Origin: an uncultured Acidobacteriota bacterium
GTDB taxonomy: Bacteria > Acidobacteriota > UBA6911 > CAINFC01
Assembly: GCA_903847975.1 (NCBI GenBank)
Contig: CAINFC010000004.1
Span: 1-59,116 of the forward strand
DNA: 59,116 bases
Direction of reading: 5' to 3'
Position 1 is the stretch's first letter. The number at the start of each line of letters is the position of its first letter. Below are positions 4,423-35,876 of the stretch, piece by piece. The position numbers and the translations under genes are program-made. The notes below the pieces were generated by a model that did not search any database, was not told the origin of the DNA, and saw nothing but the letters and a program-made list of their open reading frames with translations.

Positions 4423-6129
4423 TTACTGTTTTTCCAGGGCTTCCGCCGGCACATCCGCCTCCCTGCGGATTCTCCGGACGTCGTCGGCGATCCGACTGTC
4501 CAACAGGCGTATATGAGCGGTACGGCCACCTTTCAGCAGGAGAAAGGTGGGTATTGTTTCCACATCCCGGATCGCCTCCAGGCGTATGTTGCGGCCCTGC
4601 TCCACCTGAAACAGGGGTCCATCCTCGGCCAGAATACTTACCCTTTTGAGGGTTACCCCATCCGCCTCGCGGCAAATAAAACCTCTGCGGGAGGAAATGA
4701 CGACATCCTCCAGCGAGATATTGCGGACGGGCATCTCCGGCAATCCCTCCAGCGCAACAGCCCGGGCCGCTCCCCGACAGATGATATCCTTCAGGAAAAT
4801 ATTCCGGAATTGAGGAGTTCCTTCGTTCGCGGCAGGCGTCGCGACGGCGGGGGAGGGTGCCTTATCCTCTGCGGGGGCTTCCTCGCCATAGGACAGGTTG
4901 AATCCGACAGCGTCCGTCGGGATGTCCCGCATGAAAATGGATCGGATGAAAATGTTTTCCACAACTCCCCCGCGGCCCCGGTTGCTTTTGAAACGCAATC
5001 CCACGTCCGTTCCGATGAAGGTGCAGTTGCGGACATGAATATTCCGGATCCCTCCCGACATTTCACTGCCAATGGTAAAACCGCCGTGCCCGTGGTACAC
5101 CGTACAGTCGGCAATCGACACCCATTCGGTCGGTTTGCCGCGTTTGCGGCCGTACTCATCCTTGCCGGATTTCATGCAGATGGCATCGTCACCGACATCG
5201 AAGGTGCAGTTGTACACCACCGCGCGCTGGCAGGATTCCAGATCCAGGCCGTCCCCGTTTTGAGAGTACCAGGGGTTGCGCACCGTCAGATTTCGAATCA
5301 CCACATCTTCGCAGAGGAGCGGATGAATATTCCAGGCCGGCGAATTGGCGAAGGTGGGCCCGTCCAGCAGGACCCTTTTGCATTCCGACAGCCCGACCAT
5401 GACAGGACGGAGAAATTCCCTGGCCTGCCGGTAGTCATTCAGAGAGACCGCCGCACCTTTTTCCTGCAATGCCTGAACGGTCCGGGCCCCTTGCATGGCT
5501 TCCTCGGAGGGCCACCAGATGCTCTTGTCCTTGGATACCACCCCCCCGGAGGCCAGAAGATCGCGCCACTGGTTGGCGGTCATTTTAAATTTCTTTACCG
5601 GCCGCCAGGCGTCGCCGGAACCATCCACCATGCCGGGACCGGTTATGGCAATATCGGTTAATCCCCGGCCGTAAATGGGAGACATAAAGCGGACGCGCGG
5701 TCCTCCTTCGAAAGAGGTCTCGACCAGGGGATAATCGTCGGGATTCCGGCTGAAAAGCAGCAGGGCATTGCGCTCCAGGTGCAGTTCGATGCGGCTTGCC
5801 AGTTGGATGGGGCCGGTCCTCCAGATTCCGGCCGGCACCACCAGTCGTCCGCCGCCCTGCTGGGAGCAGGCGGCAATGGCCCGGCGAAAAGCTTCCGTAT
5901 TGAGGGCCTGTCCGTCGCCCACGGCGCCGAAATCGAGGATATTCCACTGGCGGTCCGGGATATCCGGCAACCTGACGGGAGGCATTGGGAAGGGCAACCC
6001 GGTAATATGTCGAACCGGTTCTCTTGGCGTACGTTCCGTTTGCGCCTGAATGGTCCATCCGAGTCCCCCGCACACCAGGATCGGAATGAGAAGAAACGGT
6101 CTACCGTTCAATCCGGTGATTCGCACCAT
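4423..6129 (-). CDS. GH28 polygalacturonase-like glycoside hydrolase, secreted
   Basis: A 568-residue right-handed beta-helix enzyme of glycoside hydrolase family 28, which cleaves galacturonan in pectin. The ATG at 6129 follows GAGGTGGC. A signal peptide covers roughly residues 1-30 (LLIPILVCGGLGW...IQAQ). The N-terminal signature WNILDFGAVGDG (62-73) marks the helix start. Family catalytic motifs are present: NGDG (291-294), GDD (313-315), GHGG (347-350) and RFK (379-381). These match the NTD, GDD, GHG and RxK motifs, with G for T in the first; the expected aspartates are all kept, so activity is likely. An insert near 185-225 and the length suggest the bacterial exo-type group; the exact substrate is not readable. 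Confidence 0.88.
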   Translation of the reverse strand: MVRITGLNGRPFLLIPILVCGGLGWTIQAQTERTPREPVRHITGLPFPMPPVRLPDIPDRQWNILDFGAVGDGQALNTEAFRRAIAACSQQGGGRLVVPAGIWRTGPIQLASRIELHLERNALLLFSRNPDDYPLVETSFEGGPRVRFMSPIYGRGLTDIAITGPGMVDGSGDAWRPVKKFKMTANQWRDLLASGGVVSKDKSIWWPSEEAMQGARTVQALQEKGAAVSLNDYRQAREFLRPVMVGLSECKRVLLDGPTFANSPAWNIHPLLCEDVVIRNLTVRNPWYSQNGDGLDLESCQRAVVYNCTFDVGDDAICMKSGKDEYGRKRGKPTEWVSIADCTVYHGHGGFTIGSEMSGGIRNIHVRNCTFIGTDVGLRFKSNRGRGGVVENIFIRSIFMRDIPTDAVGFNLSYGEEAPAEDKAPSPAVATPAANEGTPQFRNIFLKDIICRGAARAVALEGLPEMPVRNISLEDVVISSRRGFICREADGVTLKRVSILAEDGPLFQVEQGRNIRLEAIRDVETIPTFLLLKGGRTAHIRLLDSRIADDVRRIRREADVPAEALEKQ

Positions 6130-6351
6130 GCCACCTCATAAAGAAAGGAAAGCGCATTGTAATCCATTTGTTATCAAGAGATGGGACAAGTGTACGGTAC
6201 GGCCGGTGTAAAAGCAAGTGTCGGCGGCAGCACCCCCTTTCCTTTGCCGGTTTTGCGGGGTCATCTTTTTTGGCGGACTCGCCAAACGAAGCCATTTTGG
6301 TGCAAAATTCAGGTTTTCCCATAACCCGTTTTCGTTTCCGAGAAAAAGATT

Positions 6352-28876: not shown

Positions 28877-28905
28877 TTGAATACGCCGTAAATTGTCCGT
28901 ATACT
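28877..28905 (+). promoter_or_regulatory. Sigma70-like promoter of the CPBP/radical SAM unit
   Basis: TTGAAT (28877-28882) and TATACT (28900-28905) are 17 bases apart, inside an AT-rich island. The predicted start (28911-28913) coincides with the ATG of a 29-codon open frame at 28912. Confidence 0.65.
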
Positions 28906-28911
28906 TGCGAA

Positions 28912-29001
28912 ATGGTAAAGAAATATATAAAAGCGAACTACTATTCCTGTCGGCCGGTTTCTGCAGAAGAAACTTTTGTGAAAGCCTGCCGGGTGCGTTG
29001 A
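28912..29001 (+). CDS. Candidate leaderless 29-residue peptide upstream of the CPBP gene
   Basis: An open frame of 29 codons starts at the predicted transcription start of the unit and ends 12 bases before the CPBP ATG. The peptide begins MVKKYIKANYYSCR, has two cysteines (residues 13 and 26) and ends KACRVR; it is basic and short. There is no ribosome site, as expected for a leaderless mRNA. It could be a precursor peptide for the downstream radical SAM enzyme, a regulatory leader peptide, or simply untranslated leader. Evidence is position only. Confidence 0.3.
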   Translation: MVKKYIKANYYSCRPVSAEETFVKACRVR

Positions 29002-29013
29002 CGATATCAAGCC

Positions 29014-29991
29014 ATGGACAAGAAGGATACCGATACGCCTCGCCTTCCCGAGGGGCCCGGGCCCGGGGACGGCCGGCTGACCGGGCCGGTTGGAGACGAG
29101 GATCACCTCGAGTATTTCCGCCGTCAGGCGGAACGGATTACCCGCGGTAAATATCACGAGGCTGCGGAAGTGCACGAGGTTTCGAGCTGGCCGGGGGTTT
29201 CGCCGGGGGTGGCACGTTTCGCCGAGTCCTTCGGCCTGATGGCCGTCAAGCTGGAGGCGCGCGAGCACGCGCTGGAGGCAACCATCGAAGACTTGCGGCG
29301 CGCCAATGAGCAGCTGGCCGAATCGCTCAAGCTCCGCCAGGAATTCACCTACATCTTCCTCACCACGGTCGGCGCTCTCGGGCTCTACAGCCTGGTCAAC
29401 AGCCTTCTTGTGGCCACTGTCCAGCTTTCGAGCCTCGTGGCGCGCGTTGTCGAATTCGGCGCACTTCTCTCGATCTTCGGGTTCATCCGGACGAGCCGGA
29501 TTCCGCCCGGCTCGCTTGGCCTGACCACGGTTCGGGCCCGCCAGTCGATTGCCGAATCCCTGGTTGCGACCGCTCCGATCGTGGCGCTTCTCTTCGCCGC
29601 CAAGGCTTGGATGCTGAGCCGCGGCATCCTCTGGGCCGGCGATTCCCTATTTACCTGGCTGGCTCTCGACTGGACCTACGCCCTCTATCTGGTGGTTGCG
29701 CCGCTCCAGGAGTTCGTGGCCCGGGGCATGATGCAAACCTCGGTCGAGCGGGTGCTGACCGGCCGGCACAGCTGGTTCTGGGCAATCCTCATCGTGGCCC
29801 TCGTTTTTGGCGTTTTTCATCTCCAGGTGTCGGTGCCGATGGCGCTGGTCAGCATGGCCTTCAGCTTCTTCTGGGGGCTGCTCTACAACCGGCATCGGAC
29901 CATCATCGGGGTCAGCATCTCGCACTTCATCATCGGCAACCTGGCCGGCATTCTCGGCCTGTGGGATTTCCTGGTCCGGGCCAGGCTCTAG
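29014..29991 (+). CDS. CPBP-family (CAAX-type) intramembrane protease with coiled-coil N-terminus
   Basis: A 325-residue protein. Residues ~28-110 are cytoplasmic with a coiled coil (LEAREHALEATIEDLRRANE). About six membrane helices follow. The CPBP/Abi glutamic protease motifs are present: LQEFVARGMMQ (E233, R237; first Glu of EExxxR replaced by Gln), FGVFHLQ (H269) and SHFIIGN (H304, N309). The family cleaves peptides or prenylated proteins in the membrane and is common in peptide maturation or immunity. No clear Shine-Dalgarno precedes the ATG. It is followed after 5 bases by the CxxCxxCC protein gene. Leucine codons here are often CTC or CTT, unlike the CTG-rich neighbours. Confidence 0.8.
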   Translation: MDKKDTDTPRLPEGPGPGDGRLTGPVGDEDHLEYFRRQAERITRGKYHEAAEVHEVSSWPGVSPGVARFAESFGLMAVKLEAREHALEATIEDLRRANEQLAESLKLRQEFTYIFLTTVGALGLYSLVNSLLVATVQLSSLVARVVEFGALLSIFGFIRTSRIPPGSLGLTTVRARQSIAESLVATAPIVALLFAAKAWMLSRGILWAGDSLFTWLALDWTYALYLVVAPLQEFVARGMMQTSVERVLTGRHSWFWAILIVALVFGVFHLQVSVPMALVSMAFSFFWGLLYNRHRTIIGVSISHFIIGNLAGILGLWDFLVRARL

Positions 29992-29996
29992 CTCCT

Positions 29997-30542
29997 ATGA
30001 TAAACGCCGGCCCGGACCAACGGCATGCGCCGCGTCTCTCTCCCTTTCTTTGGGCGGCGGCCCGCCTCGGTTACCACGCGTTCGTGATTGCCGGCATGAT
30101 GACCGGCGGCCTTTTCTTCTTCCTGGTCGCGCCGGTCAGCTCATGGGTCTTTCTGGGTACCTGGCGGTTCTGGCGGTATTGGCCGGTCTATCCGGGACTT
30201 ATCGCTCAGCCCTACAAACTGCTCCGGCGGTTGCTGCGGGATCCCCGGGCCTACGCTTTCGACTTCTCGGTGCCGCTCACCGCGCCGCCGCTCCACGGTC
30301 CGGCGGGGGGCGGTTTCCGCCTCCAGGCGTCCTGGGCGCACGGCGCGATCGGCTGCCACGGTTGCGCGCGGTGCTGCGAATATCTGGGGTGTCCCCTGCT
30401 CGACCGGGAATCGCGGCAGTGCCTCTCCTTCGGCTCCTTTCACTGGCGCTATTTCACCTGCGGTGCCTTTCCGGCCGGGCAGACGGACATCTCCCGCTAC
30501 CAATGCCCGAAGTGGGAGCTGGTGCCCGGGGAGGAGCGATGA
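29997..30542 (+). CDS. Membrane protein with CxxCxxCC (YkgJ-like) cysteine cluster
   Basis: A 181-residue protein. A hydrophobic segment at about 27-53 (HAFVIAGMMTGGLFFFLVAP) is followed by a basic region and a cysteine-rich C-terminus: C120, C123, C126 and C127 in GCHGCARCCEYLGC, then C132, C142, C155 (FTCGAFP) and C170. The CxxCxxCC core matches the YkgJ-type Fe/Zn-binding cluster family. It probably binds a metal or Fe-S cluster at the membrane. Its stop overlaps the radical SAM start (ATGA), so it is translationally coupled to it and likely assists that enzyme. The exact function is unknown. Confidence 0.72.
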   Translation: MINAGPDQRHAPRLSPFLWAAARLGYHAFVIAGMMTGGLFFFLVAPVSSWVFLGTWRFWRYWPVYPGLIAQPYKLLRRLLRDPRAYAFDFSVPLTAPPLHGPAGGGFRLQASWAHGAIGCHGCARCCEYLGCPLLDRESRQCLSFGSFHWRYFTCGAFPAGQTDISRYQCPKWELVPGEER

Positions 30543-31768
30543 TGCCACCCGCCCGGAAACCACTTCCGTTCCTGCAGGTGCTGTGGCGGCTCCTGCGCGA
30601 GAGCCGGGGGATCGCCCGCGTCGCTGCGCCGCGAAAGACAGTCCACTACCTGACGGCCCTGTGGCGGGAGAAATGCCTCGCCTTCGACGGCAAGGTTGTA
30701 ATCAACATGTTCTTTCCGCCCTTTCCGGGACGCGCTTTTCTTCCGATCGTTGCCGACTGCCTCGATTTCCCGGGGAGCGTTCATCTGGCGGTCACCAACC
30801 GCTGTCATCAGCTCTGCCGCTACTGCAACCTGGGCGCCTCTCCGCCGCGGGATCTCTCCACCGCGCAGATGCTCGACATCCTGAAGCAGGTCCAGGATCT
30901 GACCGCACCGATCATCGGCTTCACGGGCGGCGAGGCACTGATGCGCGAGGACATCGAGACGCTCCTGGCCGGGGTCGACGACCGCTCCTCGACCATTCTC
31001 TACACTTCGGGCACCGGCCTGACCGCCGCGAAGGCTCTCTCTCTCAAGCGCGCCGGCCTATTCGCGATCTCGATCAGCCTCGATCATGCGGACCGCGCCG
31101 TCAACGATGCGCACCGATTCCCCGGCAGTCACGACGCGGCGCTCCGCGGCATCCAGAACGCGCTCGCGGCCGGGCTCTTCACGGTCGCCTCGGTTGTCGT
31201 CTCCGGGGAAACCCTCGAATCGTTCCCGAGCTATCTGGCGTTCGCCAACCAGCTCGGGGTACACGGGATCCGGGTACTCGACATCATCCCGAGCGGCGCC
31301 TGTATCGACCGGCCGCCCCTCGATGCACGGTCACGCGCGCGGCTGATCGAATGGTGCGAGGCCGCCAACCGCGACCCCTCGCTGCCGCAGATCACCTGCA
31401 TGGCGCGCCTGGAGGGGCCGGATCAGTTCGGCTGCGGTGCCGGCGGGGTCTATCACATGTACATCGACGGCGAGGGATACCTGCGGCCCTGCGATTTCAT
31501 CCCGATCCGGTTCGGGAATCTGGCGGAGGAGCCGCTGGCGGTCGTTTACCGCCGGATGCGCCGCTATTTCCCCCGCACCCGGGACTTCTGTTTCATGAAA
31601 CGCCACAGCCGGCGGCTGGCGGCACTCCTCGGCGGCCGGCCCTGCCTGCCGTGGACCGAGGCTGTCGGTTTTCTCGAAGCGGTCCGGAACGATCCGCCGC
31701 CCCGAATGTTTACGCGGATTCACGGCAATCATTTTCACAGCAGCACGCGCGGCAGTTCCGGTAATTAA
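30539..31768 (+). CDS. Radical SAM protein with C-terminal cysteine region (SPASM-like)
   Basis: A 409-residue radical SAM enzyme. The cluster motif is CHQLCRYC (C89, C93, C96). GFTGGEALMREDIE and YTSGTGLT, ISISLDHAD are the expected SAM-barrel segments. The C-terminal part has FGCGAGG, YIDGEGYLRPCDFIPIRFGNL and CFMKRH, like the auxiliary-cluster (SPASM/twitch) region of enzymes such as PqqE, NirJ and AlbA that modify peptides or cofactors. The ATG at 30539 overlaps the previous stop and follows GGGGAGGAG. A terminator hairpin follows at 31844. The substrate is unknown; a peptide is inferred from the CPBP neighbour. Confidence 0.82.
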   Translation: MMPPARKPLPFLQVLWRLLRESRGIARVAAPRKTVHYLTALWREKCLAFDGKVVINMFFPPFPGRAFLPIVADCLDFPGSVHLAVTNRCHQLCRYCNLGASPPRDLSTAQMLDILKQVQDLTAPIIGFTGGEALMREDIETLLAGVDDRSSTILYTSGTGLTAAKALSLKRAGLFAISISLDHADRAVNDAHRFPGSHDAALRGIQNALAAGLFTVASVVVSGETLESFPSYLAFANQLGVHGIRVLDIIPSGACIDRPPLDARSRARLIEWCEAANRDPSLPQITCMARLEGPDQFGCGAGGVYHMYIDGEGYLRPCDFIPIRFGNLAEEPLAVVYRRMRRYFPRTRDFCFMKRHSRRLAALLGGRPCLPWTEAVGFLEAVRNDPPPRMFTRIHGNHFHSSTRGSSGN

Positions 31769-31843
31769 TCGACCGCCTGAATCAATCGCATCCCTTTCTG
31801 CATGGAACTGCCTACCGCGAGATAAAGCGCACGGAACCCGGAT

Positions 31844-31878
31844 AAGTGGTAAGCAGCCCTAATCTGCTTTCCACTTTT
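31844..31878. terminator. Terminator hairpin after the radical SAM unit
   Basis: AAGTGGTAAGCAG pairs with CTGCTTTCCACTT (one T-T mismatch) around a CCCTAAT loop, followed by TTTT on the plus strand. It lies between convergent genes and could stop both; on the minus strand the trailing bases are ATCC, so plus-strand use is more likely. Confidence 0.6.
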
Positions 31879-31881
31879 CGA

Positions 31882-32691: not shown

Positions 32692-32720
32692 TTGGAAATT
32701 ATACAATTAGATAGTATAAT
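32692..32720 (+). promoter_or_regulatory. Sigma70-like promoter of minor-pilin cluster II
   Basis: TTGGAA (32692-32697) and a perfect TATAAT (32715-32720) are 17 bases apart. The expected start (about 32727) lies only a few bases before the candidate ATGs at 32731 and 32740, so the mRNA would be leaderless or nearly so. Confidence 0.7.
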
Positions 32721-32730
32721 AACAATGACC

Positions 32731-33216
32731 ATGCGCTACATGCGAGGCAAGACGGGTGGCTATACGCTTATCGAGAGCATGATCGTTTTGTTGATCGTCG
32801 GCATTGCCACGGGCGCGGCCGTGCCGCCTCTCCTGCAGTACGTCCGGCAGGCCCGGTTCCAGGATTACTCCTCGCAGGCGGAATACCTGGTCAAGTTCGC
32901 CCGGCTGTATGCCATGGAGAGAACCACCAACGTCGGGATCTGCCTGGGAACCGGGCAGATCGTGTTGCGCGACCTGGGAACCGGCCGTTCCGCGGACATC
33001 TGCTCGGCCGGCACGATCGTCCGCAGCGTGCAATTGCCGTCGGCGTACCCGTACCTCAGCTTTTCCGGCAGCAATGCGGCCCTGGATCCCCGAGGCCTTG
33101 CGATTACAACGGGAAACCTATGTACCTCTTACGGAAGCAACTCAAACAATATCTGTATCGGGAAAACCAGAATCAACAGGATGGAGGTTGCCGGAGGATG
33201 CGGTACCTGTCCCTGA
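32731..33216 (+). CDS. Type IV minor pilin, FimT/GspH-like (cluster II)
   Basis: A 161-residue prepilin. The leader (MRYMRGKTGG) ends in glycine before YTLIESMIVLLIVGIATGAAV, with glutamate at position 5. The C-terminal domain includes NVGICLGTGQIVLRDLG, LDPRGLAI and a cysteine-rich end (CTSYGS, CIGKT, CGTC). The promoter upstream excludes the ATG at 32725 unless transcription starts early; 32731 is chosen, 32740 is possible. It is the same family as the first gene of cluster I but clearly diverged from it. It overlaps the next gene by 19 bases. Confidence 0.8.
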   Translation: MRYMRGKTGGYTLIESMIVLLIVGIATGAAVPPLLQYVRQARFQDYSSQAEYLVKFARLYAMERTTNVGICLGTGQIVLRDLGTGRSADICSAGTIVRSVQLPSAYPYLSFSGSNAALDPRGLAITTGNLCTSYGSNSNNICIGKTRINRMEVAGGCGTCP

Positions 33217-33560
33217 AGGCCAGCGGCAGCCGGGGCATGTCCCTGGTGGAGTCGCTGATCGCCTGTACCATTATGGCCGGGTCTCTCCTGAGCCTGGCGT
33301 ACATGCAGGCCAGCTTCGGCAAGCAGTATCTCGACCGCCGGCTGCAAAGTGCCTTGCAGGACGTGGCCGCCAGCGAAATGGCGCGGTGCCGGATCGGGGC
33401 TGCCGCCAATGCATCCGTCACCTATCTGGGCTTTGCGGTGACCGTCAGCCGAACGGGCGGGGACTGCCTGCCGGCTCAAAGCGCCTGCCAGAACATCGCG
33501 GTAACTACCATGAGCAATAATCGGACCTATTCCCTGGTTTCCAAAGTCTGCGGTTATTAG
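33198..33560 (+). CDS. Type IV minor pilin, PilV-like (cluster II)
   Basis: A 120-residue prepilin; leader MRYLSLKASGSRG, mature start MSLVESLIACTIMAGSLLSLAYMQ with glutamate at position 5. ATG at 33198 is preferred: GGAGG lies 10 bases upstream (33183-33187) and the leader length is normal, while the open frame reaches back to 33120. Cysteines occur in pairs (DCLPAQSAC, VCGY), suggesting disulfides in the exported domain. Confidence 0.78.
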   Translation: MRYLSLKASGSRGMSLVESLIACTIMAGSLLSLAYMQASFGKQYLDRRLQSALQDVAASEMARCRIGAAANASVTYLGFAVTVSRTGGDCLPAQSACQNIAVTTMSNNRTYSLVSKVCGY

Positions 33561-33562
33561 AG

Positions 33563-34546
33563 ATGCGAGTTAAGGAGAAGGGGCGCACCTCCGGATTCGG
33601 AATGCTGGAACTGCTGTTGGCTCTGACGGTCACAGGATTCGTCCTGATGAGCTCCACCTTTCTTTTTGTCGTTTCGACGCGGCTCTTTCGCGATACCAAA
33701 AGCCAGTCGGACAACCTGGAAAACAAATCCCCGTCGATGGAGCTGCTCTCCCGGTACGTGGACCGCTGGGGGGTGGGGGTTGTCTCGCAGGCGGCGCTGA
33801 GCGGCTGTACGGGGACGATGTCCGACGGCCTGGGCAACACCTTGCCGGTCTGTCCGCCCCAGGAAAAGAGCTTGTCCATCACCTCCAACCTGATCGATGG
33901 AACCTCCTTTTCCAATGTCTCATTTTACGGGAATATGAACGGCTTCGGTTTCGTGCAATCCGTCGTCGCCGGTACGACGACGACCGCCAGCCTGGTCAGC
34001 TGTCGACTGGCCGGCACGGAAGCGGCCTCGTGGAATTGCCACAACGTCTGGCGAAGTTCCGGTCTGCTCAACGATCTCTCTTCCGCCAGGGTGGTTCCGC
34101 TGGCCTTTCTGGGCGCCATGAACAGCGTGGACTGTCTTTCTGCCACCGCGCCCAATAAGACCGGAGTCAATTTCGCCATGAGCGGTTCCTCCGGAAACAG
34201 ACAACTGGCGGCCGGGGATATTATCCAGCGCAGTCCTTTTCACATCCGGCTCTTCTGCCAGCAGAATTCGAACGACAGCAACCGTATCTGGCTGTATGTA
34301 AAAATGACCGATACGGCGGCGGCCTGCAATGCCGGCGATTCGACGGCGCAGCCGGTGATGCCCGTGGACGCCTTTAACGTGCAGGGCATTGCCGCGGTGA
34401 ATCCCGCTTCCAGCAGTTGCACCGCAGCCAGCGGCGGGGATGATTGCGGCGCCATGCAGATCACCCTGACTTTGCGCAGTGAAACCCGGAGCTCCAGGGC
34501 GAATCAGTACGATACCATCCAACTGTCAGGCGTCTATGGGAGGTAA
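33563..34546 (+). CDS. Type IV minor pilin, PilW-like (cluster II)
   Basis: A 327-residue prepilin starting 2 bases after the previous stop. The leader MRVKEKGRTSGFG precedes MLELLLALTVTGFVLMSSTFLFV, with the conserved glutamate at mature position 3 by this alignment (or 5 if cut after SG). The large exported domain is Ser/Thr/Asn-rich with several cysteines (LSGCTGTM, SLVSCRLAG, SSSCTAASGGDDCG). Length and order suit PilW. It is much longer than the PilW-like protein of cluster I. Confidence 0.76.
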   Translation: MRVKEKGRTSGFGMLELLLALTVTGFVLMSSTFLFVVSTRLFRDTKSQSDNLENKSPSMELLSRYVDRWGVGVVSQAALSGCTGTMSDGLGNTLPVCPPQEKSLSITSNLIDGTSFSNVSFYGNMNGFGFVQSVVAGTTTTASLVSCRLAGTEAASWNCHNVWRSSGLLNDLSSARVVPLAFLGAMNSVDCLSATAPNKTGVNFAMSGSSGNRQLAAGDIIQRSPFHIRLFCQQNSNDSNRIWLYVKMTDTAAACNAGDSTAQPVMPVDAFNVQGIAAVNPASSSCTAASGGDDCGAMQITLTLRSETRSSRANQYDTIQLSGVYGR

Positions 34547-34550
34547 CCCC

Positions 34551-35876
34551 GTGATCCGCGAGCAAGGCTTCGCCCTGATAACCGTACTTCTTTTTTCCAT
34601 GGTTTTCTTTGCCCTGGGCGTTGCCGCCCTGACCATGTCCTATTTCGGCTTTCACACGCAGAACAGCGAGAACAACTATCAGCGCGCCGGATGGGCTGCC
34701 GAGTATGCGATCAACCAGGCCGTTTCCGCCCTGCCCACCTGTTCTTCGACGGAGACCAGCTGTCCCGTGCTGTCGCTCTCCGGACTCTCCTGCCGCTACG
34801 CAGGCATCCCGGATTCCGGGAACGCTTACTGCCTGATCCGCGGGGTGGGCCAATTCAGAAACGCCAGTATTGTCAAGATGGTGGTCATGCCGATCGCTCC
34901 CACCGGCAACTGGTCGGCCATGGTGGCCCGCTCGGGTACCCTGAACCTGAGCGGCAGCTCCTCCATTGCCAACTGCGATACCACCTGTCCGGCCGGCGGG
35001 CCGGCGGTTCTTTACCAGGCGGCCCTCAACGGATCCTATACGCCTGTCGATTCCACTCCGGCCAACTGCCCGAACAATCCCACAGGAGTATACGGGCACC
35101 CGGCCGTCCAGCAGAAATCCACTCTGCCCAACGATCTGGCTTCGACTTTTTTTGGCGGCGCAACCGACTGGGCCGCGCTGCTCAGCGCCTTGGGATCGAA
35201 GTATGGGGCGGATGCCTCCGGCCTGGGGGCGGGTTCGATTCCTGCCGCCTGCCAGGTCAGCTGGGTGAGCCCGTGCGGCGGGAAAAAACAGCCGGCCTGC
35301 AAAACGATTCCTCCGAGCGGCTGCACCGGCGGCCGGGTTTACGTGAACGCCCCGAATCAGACCGTAACCCTGAGTACCGCCCTGAGCAATCTGACTCTTG
35401 TTTCCAACGGTACCGTCGCATTGAATACGGAAGTGTCCGGAGTAAACATTTTTGCCGAAAACATCTCCGTGTCCACAGACGGAGAGATTTTGCAGGGCGG
35501 GGCTTTCTTTTCCCGCTCGGCCACCTCCATAGCCCTGGGCAGCAACCAGGTGCTTGGAACCAGCTCCAGCCCGGTGCTGATGATCCAGGGAGGCAACCTG
35601 AGCATGTCCGGGAGCGGCGGGCCGGACCTCTTCGGGATGACTTATACCCGGGGATCTTCCGTATCGATTTCCGGAAACGGAAACGTGAAGGTTCACGGTA
35701 CAATGATTCACGATAACGCCAACGGAACGTTCGACACGTCCAGCGGGAACCTGGCCCTGACTTTTGACTACACGGTTCTTGCCAACCTCTCGGTCAACCT
35801 GTCCGGATTGACCCGAAGTCCATCCTGCGGCGGTACCACCAAGGACTACCTCTTAACCAAACAGACCGCTTTTTGA
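34551..35876 (+). CDS. PilX-like pilus protein with beta-solenoid-like domain (cluster II)
   Basis: A 441-residue protein. GTG at 34551 is chosen because GGGAGG lies 7 bases before it; an ATG at 34536 would include that site. The N-terminus EQGFALITVLLFSMVFFALGVAAL is a PilX-type membrane helix. Residues ~250-420 have repeated short strands (TVTLSTALSNLTLVSNGTVALN, EVSGVNIFAENISVSTDGEIL, SSVSISGNGNVKVHGTM), suggesting a beta-solenoid or DUF-type repeat. Such a domain could bind a surface partner. It ends cluster II and is followed by R1 copy C. Confidence 0.74.
   Translation: MIREQGFALITVLLFSMVFFALGVAALTMSYFGFHTQNSENNYQRAGWAAEYAINQAVSALPTCSSTETSCPVLSLSGLSCRYAGIPDSGNAYCLIRGVGQFRNASIVKMVVMPIAPTGNWSAMVARSGTLNLSGSSSIANCDTTCPAGGPAVLYQAALNGSYTPVDSTPANCPNNPTGVYGHPAVQQKSTLPNDLASTFFGGATDWAALLSALGSKYGADASGLGAGSIPAACQVSWVSPCGGKKQPACKTIPPSGCTGGRVYVNAPNQTVTLSTALSNLTLVSNGTVALNTEVSGVNIFAENISVSTDGEILQGGAFFSRSATSIALGSNQVLGTSSSPVLMIQGGNLSMSGSGGPDLFGMTYTRGSSVSISGNGNVKVHGTMIHDNANGTFDTSSGNLALTFDYTVLANLSVNLSGLTRSPSCGGTTKDYLLTKQTAF

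Follow-up and report, generated by a model that had tools for sequence, protein, structure and literature searches.

A three-gene operon of an Acidobacteriota genome joins a radical SAM enzyme to a signalling-type CPBP-fold protein and a cysteine-rich membrane protein

We analysed a 59,116-nt stretch of DNA from an uncultured Acidobacteriota bacterium (hereafter, the window), in which three genes on the forward strand form one translationally coupled unit. The unit and its flanking signals comprise the following features:

28877-28905, + strand: weak promoter-like site (TTGAAT-17-TATACT), from a consensus scan
29014-29991, + strand: gene 1, encoding a signalling module and a CPBP-fold membrane domain
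29997-30542, + strand: gene 2, encoding a 181-aa membrane protein with 8 cysteines
30539-31768, + strand: gene 3, encoding a radical SAM enzyme
about 31842-31880, + strand: terminator-like hairpin with a T-rich tail behind it, from a computed fold

A gap of 5 bp separates genes 1 and 2, and genes 2 and 3 overlap by 4 bp (ATGA), as expected from the original prediction, which had described three tightly packed, coupled genes between a promoter and a terminator of their own. The terminator is borne out by the hairpin (-18.3 kcal/mol, z -4.5) and its T-rich tail. A promoter-like site does exist where one was proposed, but it is weak, because it matches the consensus at only 9 of 12 positions and the single site found compares with 0.5 expected in shuffled sequence, so that chance would often give as much. 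The tiny peptide encoded upstream, once considered as a possible substrate, is not credible, since every in-frame start falls within the promoter-like site, directly next to it or upstream of it, and no ribosome site was found ahead of the frame. Directly downstream of the three-gene unit, a run of prepilin-like genes occupies positions 32692-35876 of the window.

The three genes differ sharply in leucine codon usage from the remainder of the window, which served as the baseline (chi-square p 3.7e-13; 109 leucine codons in the trio, 1,491 in the rest). CTC accounts for 44% of leucine codons in the trio versus 15% elsewhere, and CTG for 41% versus 62%; the shift is present in each gene separately, with CTC fractions of 0.42, 0.42 and 0.47 for genes 1, 2 and 3. 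The predicted change from CTG-rich to CTC/CTT-rich usage thus stands for the rise of CTC and the drop of CTG, but not for CTT, which over the three genes together makes up 11%, the same as in the rest of the window. The foreign character of the codon usage upholds the earlier hint of transfer, and its sharpness suggests that the trio was probably acquired together. We found the operon in one genome only, and the whole set nowhere else among 396 genomes of the phylum, plasmids and viral contigs; the co-occurrence in other genomes that had been proposed as a check was therefore not observed within the phylum. In viral contigs, neither genes 2 and 3 nor the profiles A1 and A2 found a match, and a comparison of genes 2 and 3 with the contigs of 84,980 species, based on exact peptide seeds that reach close relatives only, returned no relatives. 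The codon bias, combined with the lack of close relatives in the bacterium's own class and phylum, favours joint horizontal acquisition. Likewise, no named system matched this exact set of genes within the databases searched, in agreement with the original prediction.

The product of gene 1 consists of a signalling module (residues ~30-110) and a CPBP-fold membrane domain (~112-325), the latter matching Rce1-like PF02517 (E 8.7e-11; 42.4 bits against a cut-off of 22.4) as the sole Pfam domain. The N-terminal module, of ~75 aa and without a Pfam name, recurs in two other proteins: its residues about 34-106 match the start of an HD-GYP phosphodiesterase encoded elsewhere in the same genome (E 5e-11) and that of a class III nucleotide cyclase of another genome (G028; E 4.3e-7), the gene for the cyclase sitting within a run of signalling genes. 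The module was located at two loci:

L101 (G000:C259), about 1355-2150, - strand: ~75-aa module
L064, 929-1906, - strand: ~75-aa module

The nearest full-length relatives of gene 1, retrieved in the plasmid search, are proteins of Azospirillum lipoferum (AZO_p1) and Legionella lytica (WP_252582690.1), in which a cyclic-nucleotide-binding domain precedes the same kind of membrane domain. Both resemble gene 1 in their cytoplasmic sensory N-terminus and in the motifs of the CPBP domain, and differ from it in the nature of the N-terminal module (cNMP-binding); as cNMP domains dominated the matches of a profile built from the full-length relatives, the profile was restricted to the membrane part. 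Neither gene 2 nor gene 3 is annotated alongside the Legionella gene, near which no radical SAM gene was found, and the Azospirillum stretch carries no annotation.

The original prediction regarded gene 1 as an intramembrane protease, an assignment that its motifs (QEFVAR, FGVFH and SHFIIG) do not favour. In myxosortase, the first glutamate of the EExxxR motif (E146) acts together with H188 in bridging the catalytic water, while H223 and N227 form the oxyanion hole (PMC11980579). Gene 1 has QEFVAR in place of EExxxR, without the water-activating first glutamate, and SHFIIG in place of HxxxN, with glycine at +4; the alignment shows the same QExxAR/HxxxG pattern in both nearest full-length relatives (QETIAR and QELIAR; SHAILG and SHVLIG). 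The histidines of motifs 2 and 3 are kept. Judged by this alignment, the domain appears to be without two catalytic residues, the water-activating glutamate and the oxyanion-hole asparagine, which makes proteolysis by gene 1 doubtful. Loss of the first glutamate alone need not abolish activity, given that two other CPBP proteins of the phylum (one on contig C252 of the same genome, one in G151) have lysine or arginine aligned at that position and keep HxxxN. Among CPBP-fold proteins without catalytic residues, LnsB, SpdC and APH-1 have a non-proteolytic role that is either known or proposed (PMC7387801); they share with gene 1 the fold, degraded motifs and a proposed role as partner or scaffold. 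Their kinship with the trio is through the fold only, as they have neither a radical SAM partner nor a signalling module. Overall, gene 1 does not look like an ordinary bacteriocin-type protease and resembles a signalling protein.

Gene 2 was expected to encode a membrane protein with 8 cysteines, and it does: one strong hydrophobic segment (29-53) precedes a C-terminal domain holding exactly 8 cysteines, at positions 120, 123, 126, 127, 132, 142, 155 and 170 (CxxCxxCC-x4-C-x9-C-x12-C-x14-C). This pattern alone suggests that the domain may bind metal. We found no match to gene 2 in Pfam, NCBIfam or PDB sequences, nothing resembling the whole protein among the 396 genomes of the phylum and no relative on plasmids. 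Membership of the CxxCxxCC family PF03692 (YkgJ) was considered and rejected, as there is no Pfam match at E up to 1 and the hhalign probability is 5%; compared with two YkgJ sequences, the likeness covers about 20 residues, the CxxCxxCC stretch only.

Gene 3 is a clear member of the radical SAM superfamily (PF04055, E 1.2e-20; 74.8 bits against a cut-off of 29.5), with the CxxxCxxC motif at residues 89-96 (CHQLCRYC) and an N-terminal proline-rich motif, PPxPxxAF, common to it and its relatives. Its C-terminus, which matches the SPASM model weakly (18.4 bits, below the cut-off of 21.5), carries C299-x13-G313-x4-C318 and C351, three cysteines kept in all relatives aligned. A twitch domain holds one auxiliary cluster. 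The spacing in gene 3 fits the SPASM/twitch motif, C-x9-15-G-x4-C plus further cysteines (PMC6231123), and these conserved, twitch-spaced residues uphold the earlier description of an auxiliary-cluster-like C-terminus, which we predict to be of the three-cysteine twitch type. In a phylogenetic tree, gene 3 and ten relatives stand apart from PqqE, MftC, TIGR04053 and MoaA (bootstrap 80, SH-aLRT 97), although this bootstrap support is modest and the tree has several long branches; from its sequence, we regard the family as unnamed and separate from PqqE, MftC and MoaA. Gene 3 scores far under every NCBIfam equivalog cut-off. AhbD and NirJ2 are among the best scores for its core, yet they reach 90.8 and 80.8 bits where the cut-offs stand at 500 (48.7-90.8 bits against 500-650 over the NirJ/AhbD heme models), and heme-pathway partners are absent here; a place in the heme pathway was accordingly rejected, and gene 3 falls outside the NirJ clade, which had been named as a possible home, and the other named clades. 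A role in defence was rejected too, as the likeness to viperin is generic, covers the radical SAM core only (residues 84-190, E 5.7e-8) and comes with no viperin context.

No gene 1 or gene 2 was found near any relative of gene 3, and the partners of these relatives change from branch to branch:

L049 827-3070, L050 2317-4371, L052 (G265:C43) about 5006-6187: radical SAM and methyltransferase fusions in three genomes of the phylum
L051 766-3649, L053 6280-9416: radical SAM gene with a lipoprotein-like gene
L054 5893-9457, L055 8811-12251, L056 7970-11466, L057 8016-9775: twitch radical SAM/GMC cassette
L047 11869-22247: radical SAM relative on the Haliovirga abyssi plasmid pHIC

The fusions (about 33-37% identity) are the closest relatives and share with gene 3 the PPxPxxAF motif and the three C-terminal cysteines; unlike the trio, they have an additional methyltransferase domain, recognized by Pfam in G033 (L050), from the sequence in G012 (L049), and from an 863-aa open frame and the tree position in G265. 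In two genomes, a lipoprotein-like gene (about 530-570 aa, 37% identity) adjoins the radical SAM gene. In G308, G170, G294 and probably G114, the twitch radical SAM gene belongs to a conserved row with genes for a small membrane protein (~135 aa; not seen in G170, L055), a ~193-aa protein without a Pfam match and a GMC-type oxidoreductase, which is distantly like mycofactocin MftG and 59-60% identical among three genomes. This row represents a conserved, undescribed cassette. On pHIC, the radical SAM gene is followed by genes for KAS III, a DMT transporter, DUF1302, MMPL and LolA-like proteins, a set that hints at a product of lipid or polyketide type. Taken together, the methyltransferase, GMC-type oxidoreductase and KAS III partners suggest small-molecule or lipid chemistry over peptide chemistry; lipid chemistry for the trio would be a guess from the partners of distant relatives.

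The reading that we favour, with a rough probability of 35%, is that the operon was acquired horizontally and encodes a radical SAM modification system that is tethered to the membrane, gated by a signal and partnered by a CPBP-fold protein without proteolytic activity. The cysteine domain of gene 2 would bind an Fe-S cluster or another metal and dock or reduce gene 3 at the inner membrane, while gene 1, not or no longer a protease, would serve in the membrane as a scaffold or to present the substrate, a role proposed for APH-1 and LnsB, and would be switched by its cytoplasmic N-terminal module. Gene 3 would then abstract hydrogen from a substrate that resides in the membrane, either a lipid or an envelope protein, and so modify it, its auxiliary cluster binding the substrate or accepting an electron. 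A narrower version seems to us unlikely: a membrane-tethered system gated by a second messenger or a signal, whose CPBP-fold protein is catalytically dead and presents the radical SAM enzyme with a lipid or an envelope protein. If true, it would amount to a new class of controlled envelope modification. Single-sequence AlphaFold models (pLDDT 58-59) were too poor for use. The operon joins three poorly understood strands, namely sensory CPBP-fold proteins without catalytic residues, a radical SAM family that switches partners and a cysteine-rich membrane protein for which our searches found no relative. If the trio works together, a signal would control the radical chemistry that it performs on a membrane substrate, in an operon small enough for testing in a laboratory host.

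Several other readings deserve consideration, among them the one originally proposed, a peptide-maturation unit. On this reading, gene 3 would modify a ribosomal precursor, with gene 2 giving electrons or metal and gene 1 removing the leader in the membrane, as in skf-like systems. Many SPASM enzymes are RiPP maturases, and the solved structures matching gene 3 include that of SkfB, a peptide maturase of the twitch radical SAM type (residues 77-336, E 1.8e-6). In the skf cluster, too, a putative protease, SkfC, is encoded with the radical SAM enzyme (PMC8172795). However, SkfB carries an RRE at its N-terminus and comes with a precursor gene, neither of which was detected here: there is no credible precursor gene beside the trio (a distant one is possible), and the Pfam PqqD model gave nothing at E up to 1, a sequence search that a very divergent RRE could escape. 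Considering also the two residues missing from gene 1, the position of gene 3 apart from PqqE and MftC, peptide-maturase NCBIfam models of which none comes near its cut-off and the lack of co-occurrence in the other genomes searched, we find this reading unlikely. Active proteolysis could also take another form, with gene 1 as a protease under signal control, gene 2 as the protein that it cleaves or controls, and the activity of gene 3 regulated by gene 2. The fusion of a signalling module to the CPBP domain and the retained histidines of FGVFH and motif 3 would suit such regulated intramembrane proteolysis, which is nevertheless quite unlikely in view of the glutamine and glycine that replace the water-positioning glutamate and oxyanion-hole asparagine in gene 1 and both relatives.

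Protein sorting of the myxosortase/MrtJ type, whereby gene 1 would trim C-terminal tags of surface proteins, is very improbable. While MrtJ is the best NCBIfam match of gene 1 (E 4.5e-7), the scores with the NF033192 and NF040914 models are low, at 30.5 bits against 75 for MrtJ and 20.7 against 100 for Mrt_core, HxxxN is not kept, and MrtJ has a single JDVT-CTERM protein as its conserved neighbour in place of a radical SAM enzyme (PMC11980579). Alternatively, the trio might be three unrelated genes in one acquired block of DNA, with no joint function, as could be argued from the gene 3 relatives, which have neither partner nearby, and from the Legionella relative of gene 1, which has no radical SAM gene nearby. 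Yet the overlapping start and stop, the 5-bp gap, the shared codon bias and the one plausible terminator speak against chance neighbours, which we consider rather unlikely.
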